DNA from: Alitta virens
Taxonomy: Eukaryota > Annelida > Polychaeta > Phyllodocida > Nereididae
Direction: 5' to 3'
Assembly (NCBI GenBank): GCA_932294295.1
Contig: OW028576.1
Coordinates: 22,575,227-22,639,226 of the forward strand
DNA length: 64,000 bases
Under the pieces are notes generated by a model. It was not told where the DNA came from. It did not search any database and worked only from the letters and a program-made list of their open reading frames with translations. Within the stretch, counting starts at the first letter, position 1. The number at the start of each line of letters is the position of its first letter. A program made the position numbers and the translations under genes. This document shows positions 18,214 through 60,303 of the stretch, in pieces.

Positions 18214-19025
18214 TAGCAGGATAGCGAGTAGACGCGAATAGGCATTCTACTGTATCTCACCTTTTCCCATCCATGGGAGTTAAAACAAATTGATAAATAC
18301 ATAATTAAATCACTGTTTAATTTAATAGAAATTATACATATGGCTATTGCAACTTATTTCATGAATTGATTGAATAAATGAAGCCTAATGCAATTACACA
18401 AATGTGCATACACAATAAGAAATATGGTGCCAGACAAATGGAAGATGAAAAGATAGTATACATATTTTACTGAATTGCAATTGGATACTTATAATTGAAT
18501 TGATTTAATTTTGTGGGTATGTTAACACAAAATTGAATTGGGATACTTCAGAGGGATTGGCTGAATAGCAGCCAAGATAGGTCTCCTTTGAGGTGTGAAT
18601 TACAATTAGCACTTGGTATAAACTGCCTAATATTATAAGCAATTAATAATATGGCCTAATTTTGAATTGGTCTAACATCACTATTTTTTTTAACTCAGTG
18701 CAGTTTGATTTCATATTAATTAAAAAAGCATAGTATTTTTTGTGTCATTCTGCTCACATTTTGAACTTATCTTTTGTTAAAGCAAATGAATTATAATAAA
18801 TACACTGAACAGTCAGCAGAAATTTGACGTTGGTCGTTCTGCAAACACTAATTTATTTATAAGGGGTGAGGGGAACTGTCTCGGCCAAAGCGTATTAAGT
18901 GCCCTTGGCATGTTATCTTTAAAGCTTCTATTGATTATGTCTAGCAGGGTTGGAAATTTGTAAAAATCATTTTACATTTTTGTCAATGGTGCAAACTAGG
19001 ACAGACTCTCAGATATCTTGTGTAA

Positions 19026-19748
19026 AGCCCTGGTCTCACATAGACTGTTTTGCCGTAGTGAACCCGTAGTATTACATAACGGTTATGCAACAGCTTTTTT
19101 CGCCAGCGACGGATTCTGGCGGCAAAAATGGTTCTACGGTGACTCTGGGGGTTCTACGGGTGACTCTGGGGGTTCTATGGATGACTCGGAGTAAGCCGAC
19201 GGGTAGTAGGAGTAACTCGACGGCTTTCAGGAGTAATCCGCCGAGTTGTAGGAGTAACTCGCCGACTGCTTCCAGCGTCAGCATCAGCGTAGGCAGGGAG
19301 GGGTGTTGTATATACTTTAAAAGGCTGCTGCTCCCCTAATTTAAGTCAGATTTTCGTCAAATAAAGACTGAATTGTAGTATAGTTCATACTGATTCCATA
19401 AGTGTTTTCGGATCGAAAATTAACCAAATATTAAGCGAGATATTTTATATTATATAATGAGCATATAAATCTATCTGTCTCTCTAAACTAAAATCGGACT
19501 AATATAAGGGGAGCAGCAATTAATAATATGGCCTAATTTTATGGCTTCACGGGTAATCCGCCGGCTTCCATGCAAGCATGGCTCTTCCGGCTACCGGGCC
19601 CGAAACTCCCAGCTTGGCCACGGGTCCCAGGTGTTACTCGACGGGTATCGCTTGGTATCCACGGGTAGCCATCAGGTTGGAGCAGGGAAGCGCATTGCGT
19701 AACCGTTATATAATACTACGGGAAAACCGGCTATGTGAGACCGGGGCT
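19026..19748. mobile_element. Non-autonomous Harbinger-type element, family C
   Basis: The ends are inverted (AGCCC(T/C)GGTCTCACATAG) and flanked by TAA on both sides (19023-19025, 19749-19751). Subterminal zones carry many GGAGTAACTCGCCGA-like short repeats. The interior holds a block with TATATACTTTAAAAGGC and a tcgtcaaataaag segment that recurs inside the elements at 44087 and 58092. Open frames through the GC-rich short repeats are artefacts. Confidence 0.85.
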
Positions 19749-21082
19749 TAATGCTGAGGCAATGCCATGTCAATGACAAATGATCATATGATGATAGAGA
19801 TATACTGCCTAGTGCCTAAGCTAAACACCAGACATTGGTTGAATTCATTTCATGATCATAGTAATTAATATAATTAGCATCATTTCCAGCTTACTATTTA
19901 AATATGTAGTTTCTATAGGGCATTAAATGAATTCCATGCAATTACATAGGTGAGGATTCCTTTGACAGCTCAAGCCCCTGCTTCCCCTTAATTGCTAGTC
20001 AATTGATATTTTGATGGCCCTTTTTGGTCTTTTAACTGGTCCTCTGGACCGACCGCTAGGCTTCTCCAATCGGTCATAACCTTTTCAAACTTACAAGCCT
20101 GATGTCCAGTTGCATCAGAAAGACATTAGCGAACGGTAAAGCCATGAATAACTCTGGGGAATTTCTAGTTGAGCAACAGGCAACAGCAACCAGCAGGATC
20201 GTGGAGCAAGCATTCAAGAGTCTCAATTAACTTATTTTACTACTACTCTATTAATCATTGTGCACATAAGATGTTGCTATGCTATAATTAGCATGTTTAA
20301 AAGAACTATTTTGTTCAGCCATGCGTTGCTTTCAACGTGCGTAGTAACAGTAATTTTCCTGCCACTTTGAAACCAATCAGACCCTTCATCTGCAATTTCG
20401 GCAAGAGGGTCTGTTGTCAGACTGATTGAATTAAATATTAGTGATGCGGACCACACTGGACCGACTGGTTCATGGGCGGTCCATGGATCAAAAAAATTGG
20501 GATTAGGCTCAATCTAAATTGCCACATTTTTTTTCACTTAACAGATCTCATCTATGTCTTTTCAGAATTTCCAAATATCATATTATATAAAAAAAATAAT
20601 TCTCATAAGAATTGGCAAATACATGTATCATAATGTATAACACATCAGTGTCTTCTCAGAAAACATTTTTAAAACATCATTTCAGTCTCTTTATCATATA
20701 TAACATGTGCACTGCAAATGAAAAAAAAAAAACTTACAATAGGCAATATCATGTCAGCACTATGCTTAACTTACCAGATTAGTAAAATTGGGTCATGAGA
20801 CTCATGTGTAATACACACACCTACAAAAAAAAGAAGAAATAGAATAAAGAATTGATGTATATATCAGTGTAACATTAATTTATTATTGCTTAATGGGAAA
20901 TGGAAAGAGCACAAAATAAATTTATTTATGACCATGATTGTAAATTCCCTAATGTAAAAATTTAGCATTGAATACACTCCTTGTTTTCATGGAAACTAAT
21001 ATTGATAAATTTGTCTAAGTACTGCTCAATTGGCTTGATGCCGTTGAGTTTAATTATACTTAGACTTTGTAGTGTGTACTGA
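19749..21082. other. Intergenic, no gene seen
   Basis: AT-rich. No exon, RNA gene or element with both ends could be recognised. Confidence 0.5.
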
Positions 21083-21759
21083 AGGGGCTGTCTCACCGTC
21101 ACATAGAAGATCGACATATGATGACGGATGAAACTTATTTACTCTTGCTCATCCTTGTCCATATATGATTCACTTGCCAGGCGTTTTACGTATACTCGCG
21201 GTTTTTCGTAATCACTCCTGGTTGCACTGGACTACTCACGAGCATACGTGGACAGGGCAAAAACATTTAAACATGTTTAAAATTTTGGTGGACGTTCTAC
21301 GAGTGAATTGTTTATATTAGTTACTTGCTGGGGAATCCAAGTATGTTCTACAGCCATACGTAGCCATAAGTAGCCATACATAGCCATAAGTAGCCATAAG
21401 TAGCCATACGTAGCCATACGTAGCCATACGTAGCCATACGTAGCCATACGTAGCCATACGTAGCCATTGTCCATCTGTATATACTTGCCATTCACTCGCG
21501 AACGCTCGTATAATGCTCGTAAAGTGCTCAGTAGACGGATGCCTGACGGATGCCTAACGATGGACATTTGGCGAGCGTTTGAAGGACGTCCGGCGAGTGT
21601 TTAATGGGCATGTGGCAAGCGATCTACAACTGCCTCACGTACGTACATTCTTTGAAAGCATTTATACATGATTAACAGAGCCAAGAGTGAACACGTATAG
21701 CTACGTATAGCCCATTTTTGACGTACATAGGTATTGTACGTGACAGTGAGATCGCCCCT
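21083..21759. mobile_element. Family A MITE carrying a 10-bp minisatellite
   Basis: The ends AGGGGCTGTCTCACCGTCAC and its inverted partner ...GTGACAGTGAGATCGCCCCT match family A. The flanks are TGA and TAA, a one-base-diverged TWA duplication. At 21350-21470 the 10-mer tagccatacg is repeated about 12 times. The open frame through it (MATYGYVWLR-like) is a by-product of the repeat. Confidence 0.8.
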
Positions 21760-22470
21760 TAAGTGTACTATCATGCAATGAACTTTACTGTTCGTTGAAT
21801 ATTCAACGAATCTCCAATATCCAATGAACTTGACTGGCCTTGTTAATATGAGCATGATGCCCAATTTTTTTAATTCCAATCTCAAAAATGTTTGAGAGTG
21901 AAGTCCTACAATTTTGCAGTTGGTCATCATTCATATACAGGTACCTATGAAAAATATTCATGAAAATCTTAGACAGTCATTTGGGAGGGCCAGGTGATTT
22001 GGCATGCAATGACCCAATATATAACATTTCGAGGTATACCTAAAATAAGAATTAATGTTTAAAGGTTGTATATATTATGTAGTGGCGACAGTAGGCGAAT
22101 AATGTAAAGCCCCGTTCCCACATAGCCGAGTTTCTCGTAGTCAACTCGTAGTAATAACAAAAATTACGTAACACCCAAAATTCGAGGAGTTGGCGACGAA
22201 TTTTTGCGGAAAAAGTGACCAGGAGTGACTCGCCGAATTACTCACCGAATTACTCACCGAGTTACTCGGCGGGTTCAGCGAGCGACTCGCCGAGTACCAG
22301 GAGTGACTCGCCAAGTTGCAGCCAATTAGTGAACGATTTCGAGGAGAGTGTCGGCGAGTTAGAGGAGTAAATCGCCGAGTACCAGGAGTAACTCGCCGAG
22401 TACCAGGAGTAACTCGTAAAGTCGACGAGTTATACTCATGATACTCATCAGGGTTATTACTTAAATTATT

Positions 22471-22510
22471 ATGCAAATAGCTGTGTTTAATTACAAAAAT
22501 ATATAAATAG
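22471..22510 (+). promoter_or_regulatory. Octamer + TATA promoter of the Harbinger transposase gene
   Basis: ATGCAAAT (22471-22478) is followed 22 bp later by ATATAAATAG (22501-22510), and the ATG lies at 22567. Initiation about 30 bp after TATA would leave a 5' UTR of roughly 35 nt. The octamer-TATA spacing resembles that of histone H2B promoters. Confidence 0.55.
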
Positions 22511-22566
22511 GGGCTGCATCTTCTGTTCTTGATCATTCTGTCTGTAGCTGCTGAAGAGAGAGGACC

Positions 22567-23891
22567 ATGGACATGCATCAGACAGAACATCAGAATAGAG
22601 TCTTGGTACTACTAGCTGCTCATGCGAATCTGCAACTTGCTGTTGTTGCAGCAGCATTACTTGAGGATGAGGAGAGTAAGAAGAAAGAAGAAAGAAAATT
22701 AGCAGCCATGAGGAGGAAGAGGAGGAGGAGGTGTTGGGTGAGGCCCTGGCTGCTGAGAAGACCTCAGATGGGACAGTATGAGCGTCTACTGACTGAACTG
22801 ATGCAAGAGGACACTTCTAGTTATACTAACTTTTTGAGAATGGAACCAGCCATGTTTCAAGGGATCCTTGGCAAAATAGGTCATAGGATTACCAAAGAAG
22901 ACACCTTCTGGAGGAAATCTTTGGATCAGGACTCAGACTTGCCATCACCCTCCGCTATTTGGCAACTGGAAACAGCTACAGGTCCCTCATGTATGGCTTC
23001 AGAGTGGCTTACAATACCATCAGCAACATAATTCGAGAAGTCTGTGAAGCCATCATTGCGGAGTATAATGAAGATGTCCTGGCATGCCCCACAACTCCAG
23101 AAGAGTGGAGAGAAGTTGCGAAACTGTTCTATTCAAGGTGGAACTTTCCTCACTGTATTGGAGCCATTGATGGGAAGCATGTGGCCATCAAATGTCCTCC
23201 AAAAGGTGGTTCAGTGTATTTCAATTACAAGGGCTTCCATTCCATCGTACTCATGGCTCTTGTGGATGCTGATTACAAGTTCCTCTATGTAGACTGTGGA
23301 GCAAACGGCGCTGGATCTGATGGAGGAGTTTTTAATGATACACTCCTGAGAGAAGGACTTGAAGAAGGGACCATTGGATTACCTCCACCTGAACCAATTC
23401 TTCCTGGTCACAGACCTCTTCCCTACTTCATTGTCGGAGATGATGCCTTCCCCTTGAGAACCTGGCTGATGAAGCCACTGCCTCTCAGAAACATGACCAA
23501 AGAGCAGAGGATATACAATTACCGCCTCTCCCGGGCAAGAAGAATTGTGGAAAACGCATTTGGGATCCTTGCAGCAAGGTTCAGGTGTCTCCTGACTACC
23601 ATGCCACAAAGAACTAAGACAGTGGAATCCATAGTCATTGCATGTTGCTGCCTCCACAATCTGATGAGAATAACTTATCCGACTGCTCAGAACATCATGC
23701 TGGAACATGAAGATCCAATCACACATTGTATCATCCCAGGAACTTGGAGGGCAGCTGGAGAAATCGCTGAAATGCCACCAACAAATAGAGGGCATTCTAT
23801 GACTGAAGCAGCCAAGAATCAACGGCAGTACTTGGTGGACTTTGTCAATTCAGACGAAGGAAGAGTGCCATGGCAAGATGACATGGTATAA
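22567..23891 (+). pseudogene. PIF/Harbinger DDE transposase (nuclease), single-base frameshift
   Basis: Cuts and pastes the element at TWA targets, together with its Myb-like partner. The N-terminal frame runs 22567 to the break near 22926-22930: basic stretch RRKRRRRCW, then WVRPWLLRRPQMGQYE and NFLRMEPAMFQGIL, typical of the family. The C-terminal frame continues to TAA at 23889-23891 with RYLATGNSYRSLMYGF (helix-turn-helix region) and the DDE catalytic domain. The triad is intact: D at 23169-23171 (GAIDGKHV), D at 23319-23321 (GSDGGVF), E at 23550-23552 (VENAFGIL), spaced 50 and 77 residues. One missing base near 22928, where the family has LDPGLRLAI, shifts the frame. Uninterrupted it would be about 441 residues, the normal family size. 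The break may be a real inactivating mutation, a sequencing error or, less likely, programmed frameshifting. Intronless. Confidence 0.92.
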
Positions 23892-23911
23892 AGATTCCAC
23901 AAAACAACCCC

Positions 23912-23949
23912 GGCCTTTTTCAAGGCCACCAAATCCTCCCAAAAGAGCA
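23912..23949 (+). terminator. Histone-type 3' end signal of the transposase gene (stem-loop + downstream element)
   Basis: GGCCTTTTTCAAGGCC (23912-23927) folds into a 6-bp stem with a TTTC loop and is followed by ACCA. It lies 20 nt after the stop codon. Thirteen nt further is AAAAGAGCA (23941-23949), which matches the U7-snRNA-complementary histone downstream element (AAAGAGCTG in vertebrates). Canonical histone mRNA ends have exactly this arrangement. The same 16-mer, spacing and downstream element follow the partner gene on the other strand. Confidence 0.75.
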
Positions 23950-24016
23950 GACCATGTACACTTCTTGTGTAATAAAAAAAAAAGTTCCTGTCTGACCCAC
24001 ACAAAATATTTTATTG

Positions 24017-24349
24017 GTTCAGAAGTGCCGTAGTTGTTGGTTGTTCAGAAGTGCCGTACCTTTTTTTTTGTTCAGAAGTGCCGTAGTTGTTTCTTGTTCA
24101 GAAGTGCCGTACTTTTTTTTTTGTTCAGAAGTGCCGTATTTTTTCTCTTGTTCAGAAGTGCCGTAGTTGTTTCTTGTTCAGAAGTGCCGTACTTTCATTA
24201 TTTTCATTGCAGTATAATAGAAAAAACTATGGCAGTTCTGAAGCAAAAAAAATAATACGGCACTTCTGAACAAGACACAACTACGGCACTTCTGAACAAA
24301 AAAAAAGTACGGCACTTCTGAACAAGAAAAAACTACGGCAGTTCTGAAC
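24017..24349. repeat. 26-bp-period array, forward then inverted, between the two Harbinger genes
   Basis: The unit gttcagaagtgccgta starts at 24017, 24043, 24070, 24096, 24123, 24150 and 24176. Its reverse complement starts at 24229 (diverged), 24256, 24282, 24308 and 24334. Spacers alternate between a GTTGTTTCTT type and a T-rich type, so there is also a period near 53 bp. The whole can fold into one long hairpin. Apparent open frames (VQKCRTFF-like) are repeat artefacts. Confidence 0.9.
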
Positions 24350-24587
24350 CAAAAAAAGTATGTCTTCTTTCATCAAAATTATTAACCCTTATTAAAAGAA
24401 ATATTACAAAAAAATGGACCAATATTTGTGCTCTAATGAAAAGGAAATATGAACAAGTTACTTGATGTGAAGAAATTGATTTTGGACTAAAATATTATAC
24501 TTTCGTGGACAAAGATAGAGAAAAGTTTGGAGGGTTTTGGAACTTCTTTTTGATTGATTGTTTATACACAGATATGTGTACAAGGCG

Positions 24588-24625
24588 TGCTCTTTTGGGA
24601 GGATTTGGTGGCCTTGAAAAAGGCC
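24588..24625 (-). terminator. Histone-type 3' end signal of the Harbinger partner gene
   Basis: On the minus strand GGCCTTTTTCAAGGCC (24625-24610) lies 25 nt after the stop codon at 24651-24653. ACCA follows, then 13 nt after the stem comes AAAAGAGCA (24596-24588). It is identical in layout to the signal after the transposase; the two form a 40-bp inverted pair flanking the intergenic array. Confidence 0.75.
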
Positions 24626-24650
24626 GGGGATGGTTTTAAAACTGTTGTCT

Positions 24651-26354
24651 TCAAACATTCAAAAACTGGCTTATGTTCAAAGCAGGAGTTGAAGTGGTGG
24701 GAATCTCGGATATCATGGATGGAGGTCCGGAAGGAGGCATTGCTGAGGTTCCCGCTGGCCAATTCTTTTCTGGACTTATCATTGGTGGGAAGTGCACCTG
24801 ATGCTGGGACCCAGAAGGAGGATAGAACTGGTGCTGCTGCTGGTGCTGCTGCTGGTGCTGCTGCTGGTGCTGCTGCTGGTGCTGCTGCTGGTGATGCTGC
24901 TGGTGCTTCATGAATTGCTGAGGTTGATGCTGGGGTTGATGCTGCAGCTGGAACCTGGCTCTAATGGCATTCGCTTTGAGCTGCATGAATGTGGGGATCA
25001 GGTTGCTGTGCAGGTCTTCAAATGCTTCATCATCCATGGACAGGCATTCCATGACAATGAACTCCCCCATCGCACGGATTCGCCTCTCCTTCAAATCCTT
25101 TGGAGGAACGACCATTTGCTGCATAGTCTGCTGGATGACTCCAGTAGACTGTCTGGCAATGTTCACAAGATTTTCTATGCCAGATTGCGGTGGCGTGGAC
25201 CTTTTCCTTTTCTTGTAGGGACCACCCTTCGTCTGCTGGACAGGAGGGATATCCATAGAAATGTCCGGATCAGAAATTTCCTGGGGCCCGGAATCATCAG
25301 CTGGAGTAGAGCTCCCTTCTTCTTCCTCGAGATTTTTAAGTGTCTCCCGTGTCTTGACAATTTTCTTCTGAAGGGCAGTGTTCCCCCGGCGACTTGGAAT
25401 GCGTGTTATGTGGTCCACAAGGAATCCAAAATTCGTTATGATCCACAACTCCTTCTCTGTGGGGTTCCTCTTCGCAGTTCCAGATGGTCCCTGCCGCACT
25501 AGTTTCCCTGCGACAGTCCGCATGGATTCCATCCAGGTCTTCAATTGGAATCCAGTGCAGGGGACACTCAGTTTCCTTGCCATCTCATTGATGAGGGCCA
25601 TTTTCTTGCCTGTATCCTTGTAGGATTTCAAGGTCCGGTCATAGAAAATGGGATGGTCTCTAAACCAGTCAGTGATATCCTGCTCATCAGTGGCTGGCAG
25701 GAACAATTTTCCTGTTTTTTTCCTGGCAACATAGGAAAGTGTAGCAGGCACTTCGGACGTAGCAGGCGAAGGAACAGGCGAAGAAGCAGGCGAAGAAGCA
25801 GGCGAAGGAGCAGGCGAAGGAACAGGCGAAGGAACAGGCGAAGGAGCAGGCGAAGGAGCAGGCGAAGGAGCAGGTGCAGGCGAAGAAGTAGCAGGTGCTG
25901 CAGCAGACGCAGGAGTAGCAACCTGGGGCTCATCATTACTACTGCCAGCATCTGATGACGTTCTTGTTGGCACTGGCAGACGCGTCTTGGCAGTCCTCTT
26001 GGCAGGAGATCTTGCAGCAGCAGCAGTCCTCTTGGCAGGAGATCTTGCAGCAGCAGTAGTCCTCTTGGCAGGAGATCTTGCAGCAGCAGTAGTCCTCTTG
26101 GCAGGAGATCTTGCAGCAGCAGTAGTCCTCTTGGCAGGAGATCTTGCAGCAGCAGCAGTCTTCTTGCCAGGAGATCTTTTGGCAGCAGCAGTCTTCTTGA
26201 CAGGAGATCTTGCAGCAGACTTCTTCATTTTCTTCACAGGAAGAGCACTCTTCTGCGATGTCTTTGTCGGGTTTTCAGAGTCATCAGAAGATCCAGCAGA
26301 TAGTTCTGTGTCCTCTGCAGGCCTTTTGGCGAACCTGGTCTTTTTCATCGGCAT
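24651..26354 (-). CDS. Harbinger accessory protein: H1-like tail, Pro/Ser linker, MADF/Myb-like domain, Gln/His tract
   Basis: 567 residues, intact. In PIF/Harbinger elements the second ORF encodes a Myb/SANT or MADF protein that imports the transposase and binds the ends. Residues 1-45 are acidic/basic. Residues 49-122 hold seven (R)SPxK(K/R) units with an 11-residue period and AAA spacers, like the tail of linker histone H1. Residues 155-200 are a PSPAPSPVPS linker. Residues about 205-290 are the MADF-like domain (DITDWFRDHPIFYDR, QLKTWMESMRT). Residues 340-350 are acidic and 380-386 are a basic KKRKRS nuclear signal. Residues 418-468 (DDEAFEDLHSNLIPTF) resemble a BESS interaction motif. 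Residues 470-510 are a Gln/His repeat from CTG-rich DNA. The start ATG is preceded by a TATA box about 80 bp upstream. Intronless and convergent with the transposase. Confidence 0.85.
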   Translation of the reverse strand: MPMKKTRFAKRPAEDTELSAGSSDDSENPTKTSQKSALPVKKMKKSAARSPVKKTAAAKRSPGKKTAAAARSPAKRTTAAARSPAKRTTAAARSPAKRTTAAARSPAKRTAAAARSPAKRTAKTRLPVPTRTSSDAGSSNDEPQVATPASAAAPATSSPAPAPSPAPSPAPSPVPSPVPSPAPSPASSPASSPVPSPATSEVPATLSYVARKKTGKLFLPATDEQDITDWFRDHPIFYDRTLKSYKDTGKKMALINEMARKLSVPCTGFQLKTWMESMRTVAGKLVRQGPSGTAKRNPTEKELWIITNFGFLVDHITRIPSRRGNTALQKKIVKTRETLKNLEEEEGSSTPADDSGPQEISDPDISMDIPPVQQTKGGPYKKRKRSTPPQSGIENLVNIARQSTGVIQQTMQQMVVPPKDLKERRIRAMGEFIVMECLSMDDEAFEDLHSNLIPTFMQLKANAIRARFQLQHQPQHQPQQFMKHQQHHQQQHQQQHQQQHQQQHQQQHQFYPPSGSQHQVHFPPMISPEKNWPAGTSAMPPSGPPSMISEIPTTSTPALNISQFLNV

Positions 26355-26435
26355 GATAAAAAATTTCTAGAGCGGTCTTTTGGTCTTCTATGTGTGTTAG
26401 CAAAATGCTGAATGATCCCCTGATCACTGGTCAAT

Positions 26436-26508
26436 CTTTATATACTACCTAGAGAGCGTACCCCGCTGTGATGACATAACAAACCCAGATACCATTGCGT
26501 CATTTGCA
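26436..26508 (-). promoter_or_regulatory. TATA box and octamer-like site of the Harbinger partner gene
   Basis: On the minus strand TATATAAAG (26444-26436) lies about 80 bp before the ATG. TGCAAAT (26508-26502), seven of the eight octamer bases, lies roughly 58 bp further upstream. Confidence 0.45.
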
Positions 26509-27310
26509 GTTAGTCCAAGCGCGTTGGATCTACATCATTCACTGGTTAAACCCACGGAGTGACACTTTAAACCCCCTCGACTGAATTCTGGCACTCCTAC
26601 AACTCGGCGAATTACTCCTACAACTTGGCGAATAACTCCTACAATTCAGCGAATTACTCCTACAATTCGGCGAATTACTCCTCGCACTCCTGAACATCCA
26701 GTCGAGTGTAATACGAGTGAAATTAGCGCCGAGTAACTCGGCGAGTAACTCGGCGAGTTAGAGGAGTTACTCGGCGAGTTAGAGGAGTTACTCGCCGAGT
26801 GACTCTTGGTGCTCGGCGAGACATGACCAAGATTTTGAAACTCCTGAAAATCCGCCGAGTGTGCCGTGCAGCGCGGCATACTCGGGATACTCGGCATACT
26901 CGGCTCCAAATCTCGCGAGTTCGCTACGAGTCACAGGAGTTTCTCGCCGAACATCTCTCGAGTGCGAGGAGTAATCGCAGAGTTTAGTACGAATTGGGCC
27001 CGAGAGGCGTGTTACGTAATACTACGAGTTGACTACGAGACACTCGGCTATGTGGGAACGGGGCTTAAGTTTATAATAAGGTTTTGTATCTAAAATTGTC
27101 AGATATAATTCTGGTGCAAGGGTTAATGGTACTGTTTCAAATCTTTCTATATAAATTGCACTGATAATAATGAAAAATAAGTGATAACGCTTGAGAATGC
27201 CCATCTGTCGGATGAATAATCTCACAATTATCAGCGCAGACTTGGAACATAACTAAATATAATGTGAAGGTGACTATTGCATCGCCCTTGCGTACCACCA
27301 AAGCATCCAA

Positions 27311-37547
<10,237 letters not shown>

Positions 37548-37556
37548 AGATTTAGA

Positions 37557-37562
37557 AATAAA
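37557..37562 (+). promoter_or_regulatory. Poly(A) signal of the serine protease gene
   Basis: AATAAA only 10 bp after the stop codon, giving a very short 3' UTR. Duplicated at 42207-42212. Confidence 0.5.
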
Positions 37563-37805
37563 GTATATTGAATATTAAATTCTTGTTTTTTTTATATGAA
37601 ATCAATGAAAATACCAGCATTGGTGTAAATTCACTGTGACAGACATAGCTGGTGTGTGCATTGCACGGTGTCTGTGCCGCTTGGGTTTGAGACTTTCACC
37701 CAAAGTGTCCATGATGAGCCAGGACTCTCAAGGGCTGCTCTCTAAACAGAACAATTGTAAATTTGTCTGGGAATTATGAGTTTTCTATTACATAATGGAT
37801 GTACT

Positions 37806-38100
37806 CTACCAACTTAACAATTGAGCCCTTGGCAGGCCTGATCAAACTTGAGCCTTTCTCAGCTCCCTGGGGCGGATACACCCAACATGCAGCCTGTTAG
37901 GCGCTCCTTAGGTCAAGCACTCTATAATTGCCATCTCTGCTTGTAGCCAAGTACCATTTACACCTGCCAGTGGGTGGAGTGGAGCGAAGGATCTGCTCAG
38001 TTCCCCATGCCATGGCAGGAGCTCGAACCTGCAACCTGGCTAGCACCTTAAACACTGAGCCACGGCCCACGGCACCACTCAGTGAGCTGGAGGACAACAT
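37806..38100 (-). repeat. tRNA-SINE family S2 (copy 1 of duplicated pair)
   Basis: On the minus strand a tRNA-like head (GTGGCTCAGTG..., B box GGTTCGAGCTCC) and the same body as 1452-1720. Identical copy at 42456-42750. Confidence 0.8.
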
Positions 38101-39012
38101 TACTTAATTCAAGGAACTTTTATATTACTCGTTTGTCAGTAAAATATTTCTGTTGAATTTTATAAGAAAAAGTTTTTGCCAGAAATATACTTGATTTTTC
38201 CCCCTGTATTTCTAAAAAAAGAGTTTGGCAGTGAACATAACGCAAACTAACTGCTGCATTAACAGGAAATAAGTATATGATAACTGGTGTACACTTTTGC
38301 TTCTTTAGTTACTCAAAACTTTTTTTTCACAAATTTAACAGACAAATATTTCTAAATCAAAATTAATATAGTATGGTACACTATTGTGCAATACATAAAC
38401 TACACCCTGACTCGACATTTACATACTAAGTGTGAGTTTCGCTAATTCAATTTACATATTATCCCCTAATAATAGGTGTTCTATATAATTTATGGCCATG
38501 AGAACCCTGAAAGGCACAACTACACTATTTTAGACAAAAAATAGTGGAGAAATATCAACGTGACTATCAAAAGGCACAACTAGGTGATATAGAGTATAAT
38601 ATCCCACAATAACCTGTATACCATAGAAAAGCCATGTGGTACAGCCTATGTGGTATACATCTATATACTACATGGTTGACCTTACAAGGATGGGAAATGT
38701 ATACCACATACTTCTATGTTTGGCATGCCAATGAAAAAAAAAATCACTTTTTGCAGCTAAGCGCTTCGCCGTTTAAGCTAGCACTGCCGCTTTAAAACAA
38801 TATTCTGTGTCAATCTCTAAAACAGTTTGAAATTTTGAAATCAGACCAGAATTAACGATTCTAGAGCCAAACAACGTAACAGAAAGTCAATGGTCTGTTA
38901 AGTCCACAGATACTGGTTTGTAAATAGCATTCATAAATTTCTTTATTAATCTGAAAATGTCCCAGAAAGTTTTGAGGGGATGACGTTGCTGACAGTTATG
39001 CAATGCTCTGAT
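38101..39012. other. Downstream of protease exon, no gene seen
   Basis: AT-rich. Contains two similar stretches around aaggcacaacta and a short inverted motif (tatgtggtatac / gtataccacata) near 38650-38720. No exon recognised. The same applies to 42751-43662. Confidence 0.5.
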
Positions 39013-39144
39013 TACAAATATAATAAATATTCATAATATTGCAATATTCTTTCTATATAAGGCATTACAGGAAGTTCCTTCTCCAACTGCCTTGAAATTC
39101 AAGATTTTCCAGCAGGACTGGTCTCTCTCACTTAAGGGGCGTTC

Positions 39145-41408
39145 ACACTATCACATATAAGACCTACGTATGACCACGTACGCCAAAAATTGGCTATACG
39201 TGCTTACTCGTGGCTCTGTTAATCATGTATAACTTCTGCCTATGATCATATGAGGGGCTATCGTAGATCGCTCGCCGGATGTCTGTAAAACCCTCGCCGG
39301 ACGTCCGTAAAACCCTCGCCAAACGTCCGTCAACGGGCATAAATTAGGCATCCAATGAGGCATCCGTGAGGCACTCGTAGAAACTCGCAGAACGCTCGTA
39401 GATCGGGGTAGAACGTACGTAGAACGTACAGCCTGCAGGAGCTTCTTTAGTTGCCACGTTCCAGCCTGCAGGTACATACCCGTCTTCTGGACCTGGGAGG
39501 ATTTGGTGGCCTTGAAAAAGGCCATACATTTTTGTTTAGTTTTCTTGTTTTTTCTACTGGAACATCTACTGCAACAGGAAGAGGAACAGGATCAGGATAA
39601 GGTGATTACTTCTGAGACATCTGAGTCATATTAAGGAAGGACGAGTTCATCAGGTGGCTCATGTTGAGCGAAACTGGCAGGAACGTTGTCACTGGCAGAC
39701 AGCAAGGATCCCACTGAAGGAGGGTAAAGGAAGAAGAACCAGGCACCACTGGAGAAGGTACAGCAGGGAAGACACCCAATGAAGGTCCAGGTCCAGAAGA
39801 CTGGTAGGTACCTGCAGGCTGGTCCGTGGCAACTGAAGAAGAAGCTCCTGCAGGCGGGGTTGTTTTGTGAAATCTTGCAGGCTTCTCAAATCATATCATC
39901 TTGCCATGGGACACTTCCTTCCTCTGAGTTGACATATTCCACCAAGTACAGTCATTGTAATTAGGCACTCTGGGTAGCATAGTTCCCTCCGATCCTGTGT
40001 GGTGGCATTTCAGGAATTTCTCCAGCTTCCCGCCAAGCCCCAGGATTGACCTCATGGGTGACTGGATCTTCGTGGTCAAGCATTCTGTTCTGGGTGGTCG
40101 GATATCTGATTCTCATGAGTTTGTAGAGGCAGCAGCATGCAAGGACTAAAGATTCCACTGTCTTGGTTTTCTGGGGCATAGTGGTTAGCAGACACCTAAA
40201 CCTTGATGCCAGGATACCAAAGGCATTCTCCACAATTCTTCTGGCTCTGGAGAGTCTGCAATTGTAGATCCTCTGCTGTTTGGTCATGTTGCAGTGGTTT
40301 CATCAGCCAGGTTCTCAAAGGGAAGGCATCTCCCCAACGATGAAGTATGGTACAGGTCTGTCACCACCAGCAATAGGTTCAGGTGGAGGTAATCCAATGG
40401 TCCCATCTTCTAGAGCTGCCCTTAGGGCTGCAGCAGCAAAAACTCCTCCATCAGATCCAGAACCATTTGCTACACTATCCACATAGATAAACTTGTAGTC
40501 TGCATCCACAAGAGCCATGAGTACAATGGAATGGAAGCCCTTGTAATTTTAGTAGAGTGAACCTCCATTGGGAGGACACCTGATGGTCACATGCTTCCCA
40601 TCTATGGCACCAATACAATGGGGAAAGTTCCATCTTGTCTCAAACAGCTGTGCAACTTCTCTCCACTCTGCATCCTCTATCAATAATTCATTCATCAAGC
40701 GTTCGTATTGGCCCATCTGAGGTCTTCGCAATAGCCATGGCCTCACCCAAAATCTCTGCCTTCTCCTTCTTTGATGACTGCTTGTCTTCTTTCTGCAGCT
40801 CTTCTGGACTGTTCTTCATCGTGCATAATAGCTTGTGCAATAGTTGCTAAATGCACATTTAATTCTAAGCTGGCCTGAGCTAATTTTACAATGGCTGTTG
40901 GTTGGTCTACTGCATGTGCTATGGTCCTTTCTCTGTGGTAACAAGGAGCAGAATGAAGGCTACAGACAAGCAGCCACTTATATATTCACATCTACCCCTC
41001 CACCGTGACAGCCAGCCTTCAAACGTAGTACACGTAGTTCACGTAGTTAACTCGCCGGGTCGCTCCTTGTAACCTTCACAGTTGTGATTGACACATGCTT
41101 GATACACCCCTCACACGTACAAGCTTGCGGATCGTTCGTAGATGCCGTGGAGTCTCCTTTGGTAAACGTGATTTACTCGTGGCTCACCTGGCATCAGACC
41201 AGGCATCATCAGTTGGGTTTGGTACGTATCCTACGTGTGATCTGACTGGTGACCGTGATTCACACCTCGCCACCAACTCACCCGTCGTCTTAAGCCCCGC
41301 CCCTTTTAGCTTCCAACAACCGTGGTGAAGTCGTCAAAATGGGGTATTACATAATTCTACTACAGCAATATGGCTTCACCGGAAAACCGGCTATGTGAGA
41401 ACCCCCCT
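39145..41408. mobile_element. Decayed Harbinger element, second copy by tandem duplication
   Basis: Identical to 34495-36758 at an offset of 4,650. The transposase pseudogene is at 39886-40922 (-) and the stem-loop at 39508-39523 (-). It arose by segmental duplication, not by an independent insertion. Confidence 0.7.
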
Positions 41409-42038
41409 TAATTGCCATTGTGTAACATGCTATGTAGGCCTAATCATGATTGCTCAGGTTTATCACACACACTATTAAAGTACTTAGTAAATAAATTGGT
41501 CATCAAGCGGACTAGTTGGGTTATATATTTGATCCTTAACCAAAAATGGTTGTCTCGGACAACTAGGTATGGCTTATTTTGATTTTTTTTTAGTGTGTCA
41601 ATGTGACAATCAAAAGGCACCACTTGGCCATGTAGTAGGATATTACTATATAAAATGTTATTAGGGTAAGTGCATTAGTATTGGAAGTTGTACTCTGGAA
41701 GTGTTTCGCCAGCCCTCCTGTCTGTCAGCTGTACGCTAAACAACTTTAATGATGCTTGTGTGCTATGAGGAATTTGCTGTGGGTTTTGCTGCAGCACAGC
41801 CTATGTTTCTATATAACTATCTGTTTTAATATCTTCTGTAGAATTGATAATTCTAAACTTTGTGTCTTGTACATGCTCTGTACTGAAACCTTAAGTATCA
41901 TTACACAACAAGCTTTCATCTCATAGAGCTAAAAACATAATTTCTTCTTAATCGCAAATTTCATGGAAGATAAGATAGTGCATTTCTTTTTGAAGATCAT
42001 GAAAGTTACTAAAGTTCTATTTATTGTCTTTCCACCAG

Positions 42039-42197
42039 GGTGACAGTGGAGGCCCCCTGGCGTGCAGACAAGGAGATGAGTTCGTTGTGGCAGGAGCTAC
42101 ATCTTGGGGACATGAAACATGTGATCCGACATTCCCATCAGTTTATACCCGAGTCAGCTACTACAGGGATTGGATCAGAGAAATTTCCGGATTTTAA
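42039..42197 (+). CDS. Second copy of the serine protease terminal exon
   Basis: Identical to 37389-37547, including the CAG acceptor, catalytic Ser (42045-42047), stop codon and AATAAA (42207-42212). No copies of exons 1-5 lie between the two, so it is either an alternative terminal exon of the same gene, unused, or an assembly duplicate. Confidence 0.85.
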
Positions 42198-42455
42198 AGA
42201 TTTAGAAATAAAGTATATTGAATATTAAATTCTTGTTTTTTTTATATGAAATCAATGAAAATACCAGCATTGGTGTAAATTCACTGTGACAGACATAGCT
42301 GGTGTGTGCATTGCACGGTGTCTGTGCCGCTTGGGTTTGAGACTTTCACCCAAAGTGTCCATGATGAGCCAGGACTCTCAAGGGCTGCTCTCTAAACAGA
42401 ACAATTGTAAATTTGTCTGGGAATTATGAGTTTTCTATTACATAATGGATGTACT

Positions 42456-42750
42456 CTACCAACTTAACAATTGAGCCCTTGGCAGGCCTGATCAAACTTG
42501 AGCCTTTCTCAGCTCCCTGGGGCGGATACACCCAACATGCAGCCTGTTAGGCGCTCCTTAGGTCAAGCACTCTATAATTGCCATCTCTGCTTGTAGCCAA
42601 GTACCATTTACACCTGCCAGTGGGTGGAGTGGAGCGAAGGATCTGCTCAGTTCCCCATGCCATGGCAGGAGCTCGAACCTGCAACCTGGCTAGCACCTTA
42701 AACACTGAGCCACGGCCCACGGCACCACTCAGTGAGCTGGAGGACAACAT
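42456..42750 (-). repeat. tRNA-SINE family S2 (copy 2 of duplicated pair)
   Basis: Offset 4,650 from 37806-38100 and identical to it. Confidence 0.8.
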
Positions 42751-43737
42751 TACTTAATTCAAGGAACTTTTATATTACTCGTTTGTCAGTAAAATATTTC
42801 TGTTGAATTTTATAAGAAAAAGTTTTTGCCAGAAATATACTTGATTTTTCCCCCTGTATTTCTAAAAAAAGAGTTTGGCAGTGAACATAACGCAAACTAA
42901 CTGCTGCATTAACAGGAAATAAGTATATGATAACTGGTGTACACTTTTGCTTCTTTAGTTACTCAAAACTTTTTTTTCACAAATTTAACAGACAAATATT
43001 TCTAAATCAAAATTAATATAGTATGGTACACTATTGTGCAATACATAAACTACACCCTGACTCGACATTTACATACTAAGTGTGAGTTTCGCTAATTCAA
43101 TTTACATATTATCCCCTAATAATAGGTGTTCTATATAATTTATGGCCATGAGAACCCTGAAAGGCACAACTACACTATTTTAGACAAAAAATAGTGGAGA
43201 AATATCAACGTGACTATCAAAAGGCACAACTAGGTGATATAGAGTATAATATCCCACAATAACCTGTATACCATAGAAAAGCCATGTGGTACAGCCTATG
43301 TGGTATACATCTATATACTACATGGTTGACCTTACAAGGATGGGAAATGTATACCACATACTTCTATGTTTGGCATGCCAATGAAAAAAAAAATCACTTT
43401 TTGCAGCTAAGCGCTTCGCCGTTTAAGCTAGCACTGCCGCTTTAAAACAATATTCTGTGTCAATCTCTAAAACAGTTTGAAATTTTGAAATCAGACCAGA
43501 ATTAACGATTCTAGAGCCAAACAACGTAACAGAAAGTCAATGGTCTGTTAAGTCCACAGATACTGGTTTGTAAATAGCATTCATAAATTTCTTTATTAAT
43601 CTGAAAATGTCCCAGAAAGTTTTGAGGGGATGACGTTGCTGACAGTTATGCAATGCTCTGATTGGTAAATGGCAAAAATTAATATTCATGAATTTTTTGT
43701 AAACTACATGAATGCATAGCCAGGCAGCTCAACTTGT

Positions 43738-43880: not shown

Positions 43881-44086
43881 ATGAAATGTCATGAGGGTAA
43901 GTGCTTCAGCGTTGGCATTCTGCGCCACAAATATATTTTAACACAATTTTTAGCATTTATCCAGATTTTCCATCAGTTTCAAAGAAGAATGATTTGGATG
44001 ACAAAATGCAGTTCATAAAAGGAAAGAACTATAATTTAGATAATTAATTGTAAGCTGAAGGGTACATTTTCTGGTGCGAAGGCTTA

Positions 44087-44830
44087 AGCCCCCATCTCAC
44101 ATGGCCAGTTTTGCCGTAGTGAACCCGTAGTATTACGTAACAGTTATGCAACGCGCTACCCGTCTCAGACCCGACGGCTACCCACCAATACCCGGCGGTA
44201 TACCTGTCGAGTGACTCCTGGGACTCGTGGCCAAGCCGGGAGTTTCGCAGTTTCGCAGCTGGTAGCTGGGTATGCCATGCATGTGTCCAAAAACTGTCAT
44301 AAGTCGGTGGATTACACTTCGAAGTCGGCGTATTACCCGTCCCTAATTTTACCTGTAGTAAAGCCGGCGGTTTACTAGGAGTAAGCCGCCGAGTTGTAGG
44401 AGTAACTCGCCGTCTGCTACCAGCATCAGCATCAGCGTAGGCAGGGAGTGGGGGTTGTATATACTTTAAAAGGCTGCTGCTCCCCTAATATTAGTCCGAT
44501 TTTCGTCAAATAAAGACTTTATTGTTCAGGAAAATGTGTTAAATTTATATAATAGAAAACAAGAATATTCTTGTAAAAAACGCCCCCAACGAGAGACTCG
44601 CCGACTTTACCGGGGCTGTCGTAGCTACCTTGCTTAACTTCTTCAGAACCCGGCGAGCCTACCGTACAACCCTGTGAGACACTCCTACAACTTGGCGAGT
44701 TACTCCTACAATACGTTGAGTCTCTCCTGGGTTTCGTGGATCAAACGGCTGTAATCCGGCGAGTCACTCGTAGAACCCGGCGAGTCACACATAGAACCCG
44801 TCGAGTCACACGTAGAACCCGGCTATAGCA
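44087..44830. mobile_element. Family C Harbinger-type element, right end lost
   Basis: The left end AGCCCCCATCTCACATGGCC is preceded by TTA and followed by gttttgccgtagtgaaccc as in 19026-19748. The shared internal block (TATATACTTTAAAAGGCTGC, tcgtcaaataaag) is at about 44455-44520. The right side ends in tcgagtcacacgtagaaccc without a matching terminus. Confidence 0.7.
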
Positions 44831-58091: not shown

Positions 58092-60303
58092 AGCCCCGTT
58101 CCCACATAGCCGAGTTACTCGTAGTCAACTCGTAGTAATAACAAAAATTACGTAACACCCAAAATTCGAGGAGTTGGCGACGAATTTTTGCGGAAAAAAT
58201 GACCAGGAGTGACTCGCCGAGTTACTCGCCGAATTACTCGCCGAGTTACTCGGCGGGTTCAGCGAGCGACTCGCCGAGTACCAGGAGTGACTCGCCGAGT
58301 ACCAGGAGTAACTCGCCGAGTACCAGGAGTAACTCGCCGAGTACCAGGAGTAACTCGCGACGAGTCACCCATCGAATGATAGGCCGACGCCAGCCTACCT
58401 GCATTCTCAGATGAATATCTCGCTTAATATTTGGTCTATTTTCGATCCGAAAAAACCTATGGAGTCACTATGAATTATACTACAAAACAATCTTTATTTG
58501 ACGAAAATCGGACTAATATTAAGGGAGCAGTAGCTTTTTAAAGAAGCGCTCAGCTTTCTGCATTAATACAGTCTGGGCGCGGACGCTTCAGGGAGCACCA
58601 GTATAAGTAAATTAAATATAGCAAATAAAATCACAGATCAAATCACAAATACTAATTACAATATCAATATTAGATTTAAATTTTACAAAATATACACAAA
58701 TTTATACTGATCATAATATCACAATAAGATTCAAATTAACACAAAAAGATAAGAAAGTTATACAAATATAATCATTGCCTGGTAATTACAATTAAATATA
58801 TTGCTTTTAATTAATGAAAGCAATTACATATTTTTGTAATTGTGAATGACAATCAAGACAATGTCATATTACTGTGTCATCTTTGAACAAACCATGAAAT
58901 GACAGGTCAAAGAACCCCAATTTAGGCAATGAGGCAATTGACACATGTATTGAATTTGCTGTATGCTCTACACCAATTCTTTGTATCATTCAAAATGCTA
59001 ATAGCAATTACTGTGTCATCTTTGAACAAACCATGAAATGACAGGTCAAAGAACCCCAATTTAGGCAATTAGGCAATTGACACATGTATTGAATTTGCTG
59101 TATGCTCTACACCCATTCTTTGTATCATTCAAAATGCTAATAGCAATTGACATAACAGTCATGGCAGTTGGCAGAATGAGTAGAAATGAATTGCAATAAA
59201 GCTCATCCAAACAATGTATATAAAATGGTCAAAAATATTGACCACACCATTCATGTCAGGGCCATACACAGAGCACCTTGCCACCGCCAGACTACCTGCC
59301 TTCTCAGACAAATATCTCGCTTAATATTTGGTCTATTTTCAATCTGAAAATCTGTGTGGAATAAGTATGAACTCGACTATAATTCAATATTTATTTGACG
59401 AAAATCGGACTAATATTAGGGGAGCAGCAGCCTTTTAAAGTAGCGCTCAGCCTTACCTGCATTGATACAGTCCGGGCGCGGACGTCTGCGAGAGCACCAC
59501 TGTTTGCCTCCGCCAACTTAGCTGCCTTTTCAGACGAATATCTCGCTTAATATTTGGTCTATTTTCAATCCGAAAACGCGTATGGAATCAGTATGATTTA
59601 TACTACAATTCAGTCCTGATTTGACGAAAATCGGATTAATATAAATGGAGCAGCAGCCACCGCAAGACAACTGCCTTCTCAGACAAATATCTCGCTTAAT
59701 ATTCGGGTTTTTTTTAATCCGAAAATACGTATGGAATCACTATGAATTATACTACAAAACAATCTTTATTTGACGAAAATCGGACTGATATTAGAGGAGC
59801 AGCGGCCTTTTATATTATATACGACCCCCTACGCTGATGATGGATGTACTAAAGGTAGAACTCGACGAGTTACTCGGTGAGTTACTCCTACAACTCGCCG
59901 AGTTACTCCTCGCACTCCTGAACATCCCCCCCGAGTGTAATACGAGCGAAAATAGCGCCGAGTAACTCGCCGAGTTCGAGGAGTAACTCGGCGAGTTCGA
60001 GGAGTAACTCGGCGAGTTCGAGGAGTAACTCGGCGAGTTCGAGGAGTAACTCGGCGAGTCATGGCCGAGTTTTTGGACTCCTGGATAATTCGCCGAGTGT
60101 GCCGTGCAGCACGGCATACTCGGGAGACTCGGCCTTCTCGGCTCCAAATCTCACGAGTTCGCTACGAGACTCAGGAGTTACTCGCCGAGCATCTCTCGAG
60201 TGCGAGGAGTAATCGCCGAGTTTAGTAAGAGTTGGGCCCGAGAGGCATGTTACGTAATACTACGAGTTGACTACGAGTAACTCGGCTATGTGGGAACGGG
60301 GCT
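58092..60303. mobile_element. Non-autonomous relative of the family B Harbinger element
   Basis: The first ~120 and last ~130 bp are nearly identical to those of 22108-27065 (AGCCCCGTTCCCACATAGCC ends and GAGTAACTCGCCGAGTA arrays at 58205-58350 and 59880-60060). Flanks are TTA and TAA. The interior has no transposase. It carries four copies of a block with gaatatctcgcttaatattt and gacgaaaatcggac (from about 58409, 59299, 59530 and 59679), shared with family C elements, and a 139-bp tandem duplication (58869-59007, 59008-59146). Open frames in the arrays are artefacts. Confidence 0.85.

Follow-up and report, generated by a model that had tools for sequence, protein, structure and literature searches.

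Candidate histone-type 3' processing signals after both genes of a PIF/Harbinger transposon in the annelid Alitta virens

The window, by which we mean the whole 64,000-nt stretch of Alitta virens DNA analysed here (contig OW028576.1, positions 22,575,227 to 22,639,226 of the forward strand), contains a PIF/Harbinger element, E1, with two convergent genes whose stops are separated by 759 nt. Its features, numbered from the first letter of the window, are as follows.

22105-22107, no strand: TAA target-site duplication, left (sequence reading and TIR search)
22108-27065: PIF/Harbinger element E1, 4958 bp, two genes (TIR search)
22567-23891, + strand: E1 transposase gene, DDE_Tnp_4 (PF13359, E 3.4e-30; open reading frames)
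23908-23949, + strand: histone-type 3' module that follows the transposase gene (hairpin 23912-23927, AAAAGAGCA 23941-23949)
23971-23976, + strand: AATAAA, 79 nt beyond the transposase stop and 21 nt beyond the purine element
24009-24357, no strand: arrays in inverted orientation, built of a 26-27-nt unit (GTTCAGAAGTGCCGTAGTTGTTTCTT type) and lying between the E1 gene ends, forming a long hairpin if transcribed
24588-24629, - strand: histone-type 3' module that follows gene 2 (hairpin 24610-24625, AAAAGAGCA 24588-24596)
24651-26354, - strand: E1 gene 2, Myb/SANT-like MADF protein (PF10545, 28.7 bits; cut-off 22)
27066-27068, no strand: TAA target-site duplication, right (sequence reading and TIR search)

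E1 was assigned to PIF/Harbinger on features that it shares with these transposons, namely a DDE_Tnp_4 transposase, a second gene encoding a MADF protein, identical 23-bp TIRs and a 3-bp TAA duplication. The TIR, AGCCCCGTTCCCACATAGCCGAG, is found at 22108-22130 and, reverse-complemented, at 27043-27065. The transposase copy is frameshifted by a net loss of 1 nt between the frames 22555-23031 and 22887-23891, and its stop codon, TAA, occupies 23889-23891 (+). The protein collection holds an intact relative of 441 aa (P0001) that is 99% identical to the E1 transposase over 96% of the query, so intact copies exist. Gene 2 has an open frame of 567 aa, counted from the first ATG, with its stop at 24651-24653 (-). 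The earlier note had spoken of both genes of a Harbinger transposon, a description that suits the open gene 2 and has to be qualified for the frameshifted transposase copy.

The N-terminus of the gene-2 protein consists of AARSPAKRT-type repeats, and a 33-nt repeat of 6.9 copies at 25990-26218 encodes these units. They resemble the SPKK tails found on linker histones and sperm histones, in a protein whose mRNA itself has a histone-type end. Of the 7988 candidates scored against the gene-2 protein, a single one, P0121, proved to be a relative; the probable reason is that low-complexity words crowded the candidate list.

Both genes are followed by the same module, in the order CCCC-GGCCTTTTTCAAGGCC-ACCAAATCCTCCC-AAAAGAGCA. 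GGCCTTTTTCAAGGCC is a hairpin with a 6-bp stem and a 4-nt loop (6/6 pairs are standard in the transposase-end hairpin on the + strand), ACC follows, and the 13-nt spacer ACCAAATCCTCCC separates the hairpin from AAAAGAGCA, which lies 13 nt past the stem at both ends. The gap from stop to hairpin, CCCC included, is 20 nt for the transposase and 25 nt for gene 2, a position like that of the signal in histone mRNAs. The earlier note had placed one hairpin at these two distances after the convergent stops, followed by ACCA and by a second element 13 nt past the stem, and we confirmed this at both ends. The likeness to the metazoan histone signal comprises the 6-bp stem, the 4-nt UUUC loop, the ACC flank and an AAAGAG element 13 nt further on, as AAAAGAGCA contains AAAGAG at both E1 ends. 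The hairpin also satisfies GGYYYTTHTHARRRCC, which, together with a stem-loop of the form GGYYYU...ARRRCC, is the histone consensus; the purine-rich downstream element (HDE) is expected some 9-15 nt after the stem. The fit to the histone signal that had been claimed stands for the stem with its loop, for the ACC flank, and for the downstream element with its spacing; it fails in one detail, the flank continuing as ACCAA and not as the ACCCA given for histone mRNAs. Unlike the histone signal, the modules follow a transposase and a MADF gene; unlike other PIF/Harbinger transposons, E1 ends both of its genes in a histone-type module.

The hairpin 16-mer occurs exactly four times in the window, where 0.03 occurrences with at most two mismatches would be expected by chance. 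The two sites outside E1 (34858-34873 and 39508-39523, - strand) belong to E2, a second Harbinger element that is present as two identical copies. In random sequence with the second-order composition of the window, the strict stem-loop consensus was found 18 times in 100.5 million bases, or 0.023 per 128 kb. The count of the 16-mer, the rate in random sequence and the conservation in E2 rule out the hairpin as a plain product of chance.

SLBP and U7 are expected in animals and, the host being an animal, are expected here. A vertebrate-type U7 5' end, from which that of the host may differ, pairs with the two E1 ends at -14.9 and -13.8 kcal/mol, and 1.2% and 2.5%, respectively, of random 60-mers of the window pair as well with it (n=3000). 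In this pairing, eight pairs fall on AAAAGAGC and the remainder form a second helix further along. According to excerpts of PMC7026596, the animal hairpin is bound by SLBP and the HDE is paired by U7 snRNP, with CPSF73 cleaving between them; changing the AAAGAG core of the HDE to pyrimidines in a mouse H2a pre-mRNA reduced processing in extract to below 5%.

Rfam RF00032 (Histone3) aligned to the two E1 ends over its full 46 positions with 30.7 and 28.8 bits (E-values of 8e-5 and 4.3e-4 for the 64-kb window searched). At E <=1, Histone3 has four matches in the window, and they coincide with the four sites of the 16-mer. The curated gathering cut-off of this family is 34 bits, so that a search at the default cut-off omits both E1 ends; this shortfall of 3-5 bits counts against SLBP/U7 processing, and for this reason the module is not assigned as a member of the family but only as working like one. 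One difference from the RF00032 consensus is the 5' flank: the consensus places AAA ahead of the stem, and E1 has CCCC. For the hairpin regions, the RNA folding z-scores (-1.76, -1.59 and -0.86) are unremarkable and likewise speak against SLBP/U7 processing. The central arrays also gave matches to Rfam microRNA families, all of them below cut-off, which were taken as effects of A/T-rich inverted repeats.

Unlike the histone signal, one of the two E1 genes also has an AATAAA. The earlier note had described both stops as free of a nearby AATAAA; this is correct for gene 2, where neither AATAAA nor ATTAAA starts in the first 635 nt downstream of the stop, and incorrect for the transposase, where the hexamer follows at 79 nt and counts against SLBP/U7 processing. 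It would be expected if the module were a passenger, a captured host histone 3' end that was duplicated in inverted orientation, the mRNAs being polyadenylated at the AATAAA (transposase) or elsewhere. If the module were a passenger, it should have degenerated as much as the sequence around it, and its conservation does not follow that expectation. The two E1 ends share an unbroken run of 42 identical bases that starts with CCCC and extends through the end of AAAAGAGCA (GAGCA), whereas the flanks of this core agree in 9/16 columns upstream and 32/48 columns downstream, or 41/52 without gap columns. The chance of 42/42 at the flank rate is about 5e-5, a simple product that ignores gene conversion. 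The identity of the core could be maintained by gene conversion between the inverted arms, and the flanks are fairly similar to each other, which counts against SLBP/U7 processing.

A further comparison is provided by E2, which sits within an intron of a trypsin-like gene and is exactly duplicated, the second copy starting at 39013.

34485-36758: second Harbinger element, E2, broken, with its transposase on the - strand (ends by eye)
34844-34873, - strand: 30 nt identical to the E1 module (hairpin and ACCAAATCCTCCCA; Histone3 21.1 bits, E 0.3)
39494-39523, - strand: the same 30 nt in the second E2 copy (exact 4650-bp tandem duplication)

Over the alignable part of the transposase, E2 and E1 are identical at 453/506 first and second codon positions, 172/253 third positions and 57/90 four-fold sites. 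Judging from these sequence differences, E2 is a member of a Harbinger family diverged from E1. The module bases are kept at 30/30, with a chance of about 1e-6 at the four-fold rate if gene conversion is ignored; a passenger would not be expected to exceed the four-fold sites in this way, nor to stay near the stop at both E1 gene ends. The conserved stretch takes in the 13-nt spacer, which is as well conserved between E1 and E2 as the hairpin. The SLBP/U7 model makes no such demand, and a copied block would be expected to behave like this. On balance, we regard the passenger explanation as unlikely; a capture origin as such is compatible with SLBP/U7 processing, the conflict lying only with the word passenger. 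The conservation evidence comes from three distinct places belonging to two families within one window, the duplicate E2 copies counting once.

In several respects, E2 falls short of E1. AAAAGAGCA is absent from its module when compared with that of E1, its pairing with the vertebrate-type U7 is ordinary (-9.8 kcal/mol, equalled by 24% of random 60-mers), and no hairpin directly follows its transposase. These deficits are weak evidence against SLBP/U7 processing because E2 is broken. Past the transposase stop, E2 retains ACAAAACAACCCC as far as the first base of the hairpin; a rearrangement interrupts it there, in which a coding-like segment rich in Pro and Ser is present as inverted copies. 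An 82-codon Pro/Ser-rich frame stops 82 nt ahead of the E2 hairpin. The frame may be what is left of gene 2 ahead of the hairpin, an attribution kept tentative by its unfiltered BLASTP comparison with E1 gene 2, in which the similarity was of low complexity only (best E 3e-4). In the bivalve Lucina, the histone mRNAs covered by the excerpts of PMC6210712 have the palindrome, with nearby purine elements in only some of them, so an end like that of E2, which has no clear HDE, has a parallel.

Between the E1 stops (23892-24650), the intergenic RNA has a folding energy of -345 kcal/mol, whereas 20 shuffles averaged -172 kcal/mol, and the arrays within it could give rise to double-stranded RNA on read-through of the gene ends. 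This far lower folding energy would also be expected if the two ends were identical as arms of a large palindrome under gene conversion, with the hairpin a feature of the DNA or of double-stranded RNA and not a processing signal. Such a palindrome would agree with the 92% complementarity of the 61-nt arms and with the homology of E2 to E1 past the transposase, which stops at the first base of the hairpin. It leaves unexplained why the module fits the histone consensus and HDE and why the identity is restricted to the stretch from CCCC to GAGCA, and E2 retains a single hairpin with no inverted partner. The array pairs are centred at 24157-24250 and the module arms at 24268, near one palindrome but not quite one, which argues weakly in the same direction. 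Considering these points, we judge the palindrome explanation to be distinctly improbable.

A third explanation is that the module is a DNA site needed for transposition. Excerpts of PMC9710019 describe a 9-bp motif bound by the Myb-like protein of the zebrafish Harbinger, and the conserved stretch in E1 and E2 exceeds the length of the hairpin, both of which would suit a binding site. The zebrafish motif is subterminal according to the same excerpts, whereas the E1 module is found only past stop codons and none of its 9-mers occurs elsewhere in E1. The window also contains a shortened element related to E1.

58092-60303: non-autonomous E1-family derivative, its 23-bp TIRs identical to those of E1

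This derivative contains no exact hairpin 16-mer, ACCAAATCCTCC or AAAAGAGC. A transposition site would be expected in both the autonomous element and its derivative, while an expression signal need not be. The absence of other 9-mer copies in E1 and of these module parts from the derivative indicates that the module goes with the genes and not with the transposition ends, and we consider a role as a transposition site very improbable.

By eye, TCTCGCTTAATATTTGGTCTATTTT-type units are repeated in the interior of the derivative. Elsewhere in the window, 19020-19750 and 44080-44820 are similar to the subterminal repeats of E1, and a segment at about 21240-21760 has an end that, by eye, resembles the left one of E2; these three are probably further non-autonomous elements of Harbinger type. 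The trypsin-like serine protease gene, a host gene, extends over 27315-37550 in several exons (by eye), with E2 in an intron. Among the best 120 of 201 matches, its named relatives are lophotrochozoan, comprising brachiopods, molluscs, bryozoans and annelids. The exact tandem duplication at 34363-43663, with a unit of 4650 bp, holds E2 and the last exon of this gene (by eye), and it is either very recent or an assembly artefact. A tRNA-like match at 1457-1527 scored 32.7 bits, slightly over the Rfam cut-off of 29, and is perhaps a tRNA-derived SINE.

The earlier note had proposed looking for the hairpin 16-mer in other genomes. Exact module patterns retrieved 0 loci from the viral contig collection and 0 from the genome contig collection, and relatives of the transposase gave 0 confirmed loci from 5 and 171 pattern matches in the viral contigs and 0 from 114 in the genome contigs. 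The 16-mer was not found among the 30 of 541 literature matches listed for it. The statement that no DNA transposon with such ends had been described held within the titles and abstract openings of those matches, where no transposon with histone-type 3' ends appeared. The terms 'stem-loop' and 'polyadenyl' have 0 occurrences each in the main texts of three Harbinger papers (PMC9179366, PMC4482050 and PMC9710019). The signal is adoptable outside the core set of histone genes, as the histone variant H3.3.2 of Hydractinia uses a replication-dependent 3' end according to excerpts of PMC5011920. Unlike H3.3.2, which is still a histone gene, the users here are genes of a mobile element. Within the literature searched, the machinery and the type of transposon are each known, and their combination appears to be new.

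The explanation that we favour is that both E1 genes end in a working metazoan replication-dependent histone 3' processing signal recognized by SLBP and U7, which we consider probable on the strength of the stem, loop, ACC flank, spacing, downstream element and conservation of the module as an island. Cleavage of the transposon mRNAs by the U7/SLBP machinery, as the earlier note had proposed, is thus retained as the best explanation, with the AATAAA after one of the genes standing against it. Host SLBP would bind the hairpin of the module and U7 snRNP would pair with AAAAGAGCA, and CPSF73 would cleave between the two. The transposase and MADF mRNAs would then terminate after the hairpin with no poly(A), be produced at similar levels and be stable chiefly in S phase, accumulating alongside histone mRNAs in replicating cells, perhaps those of the early embryo or germline. 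Cleavage of each message at its own hairpin would also block convergent read-through into the long inverted array. From this model, we infer that the mRNAs may be non-polyadenylated and restricted to S phase, and may escape poly(A)-based control.

To our knowledge, the histone 3' end is normally seen as exclusive to replication-dependent histone genes. We suggest only tentatively, as a possibility that falls somewhat short of being probable, that two diverged Harbinger families have been selected for a histone hairpin and U7 element on their transposase and MADF messages, which would be non-polyadenylated and co-regulated with those of histones; transposition would thereby be coupled to S phase and poly(A)-dependent control circumvented. 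If this is true, these would be the first DNA transposons known to end their messages in this way. Sequencing of poly(A)-selected RNA would under-sample such messages, and elements of this kind may have been overlooked in expression surveys. They would also offer a natural non-histone reporter of SLBP and U7 beyond the standard model animals. For the transposons themselves, expression would be timed to the replication of the chromosomes, when insertion into unreplicated DNA can raise the copy number.
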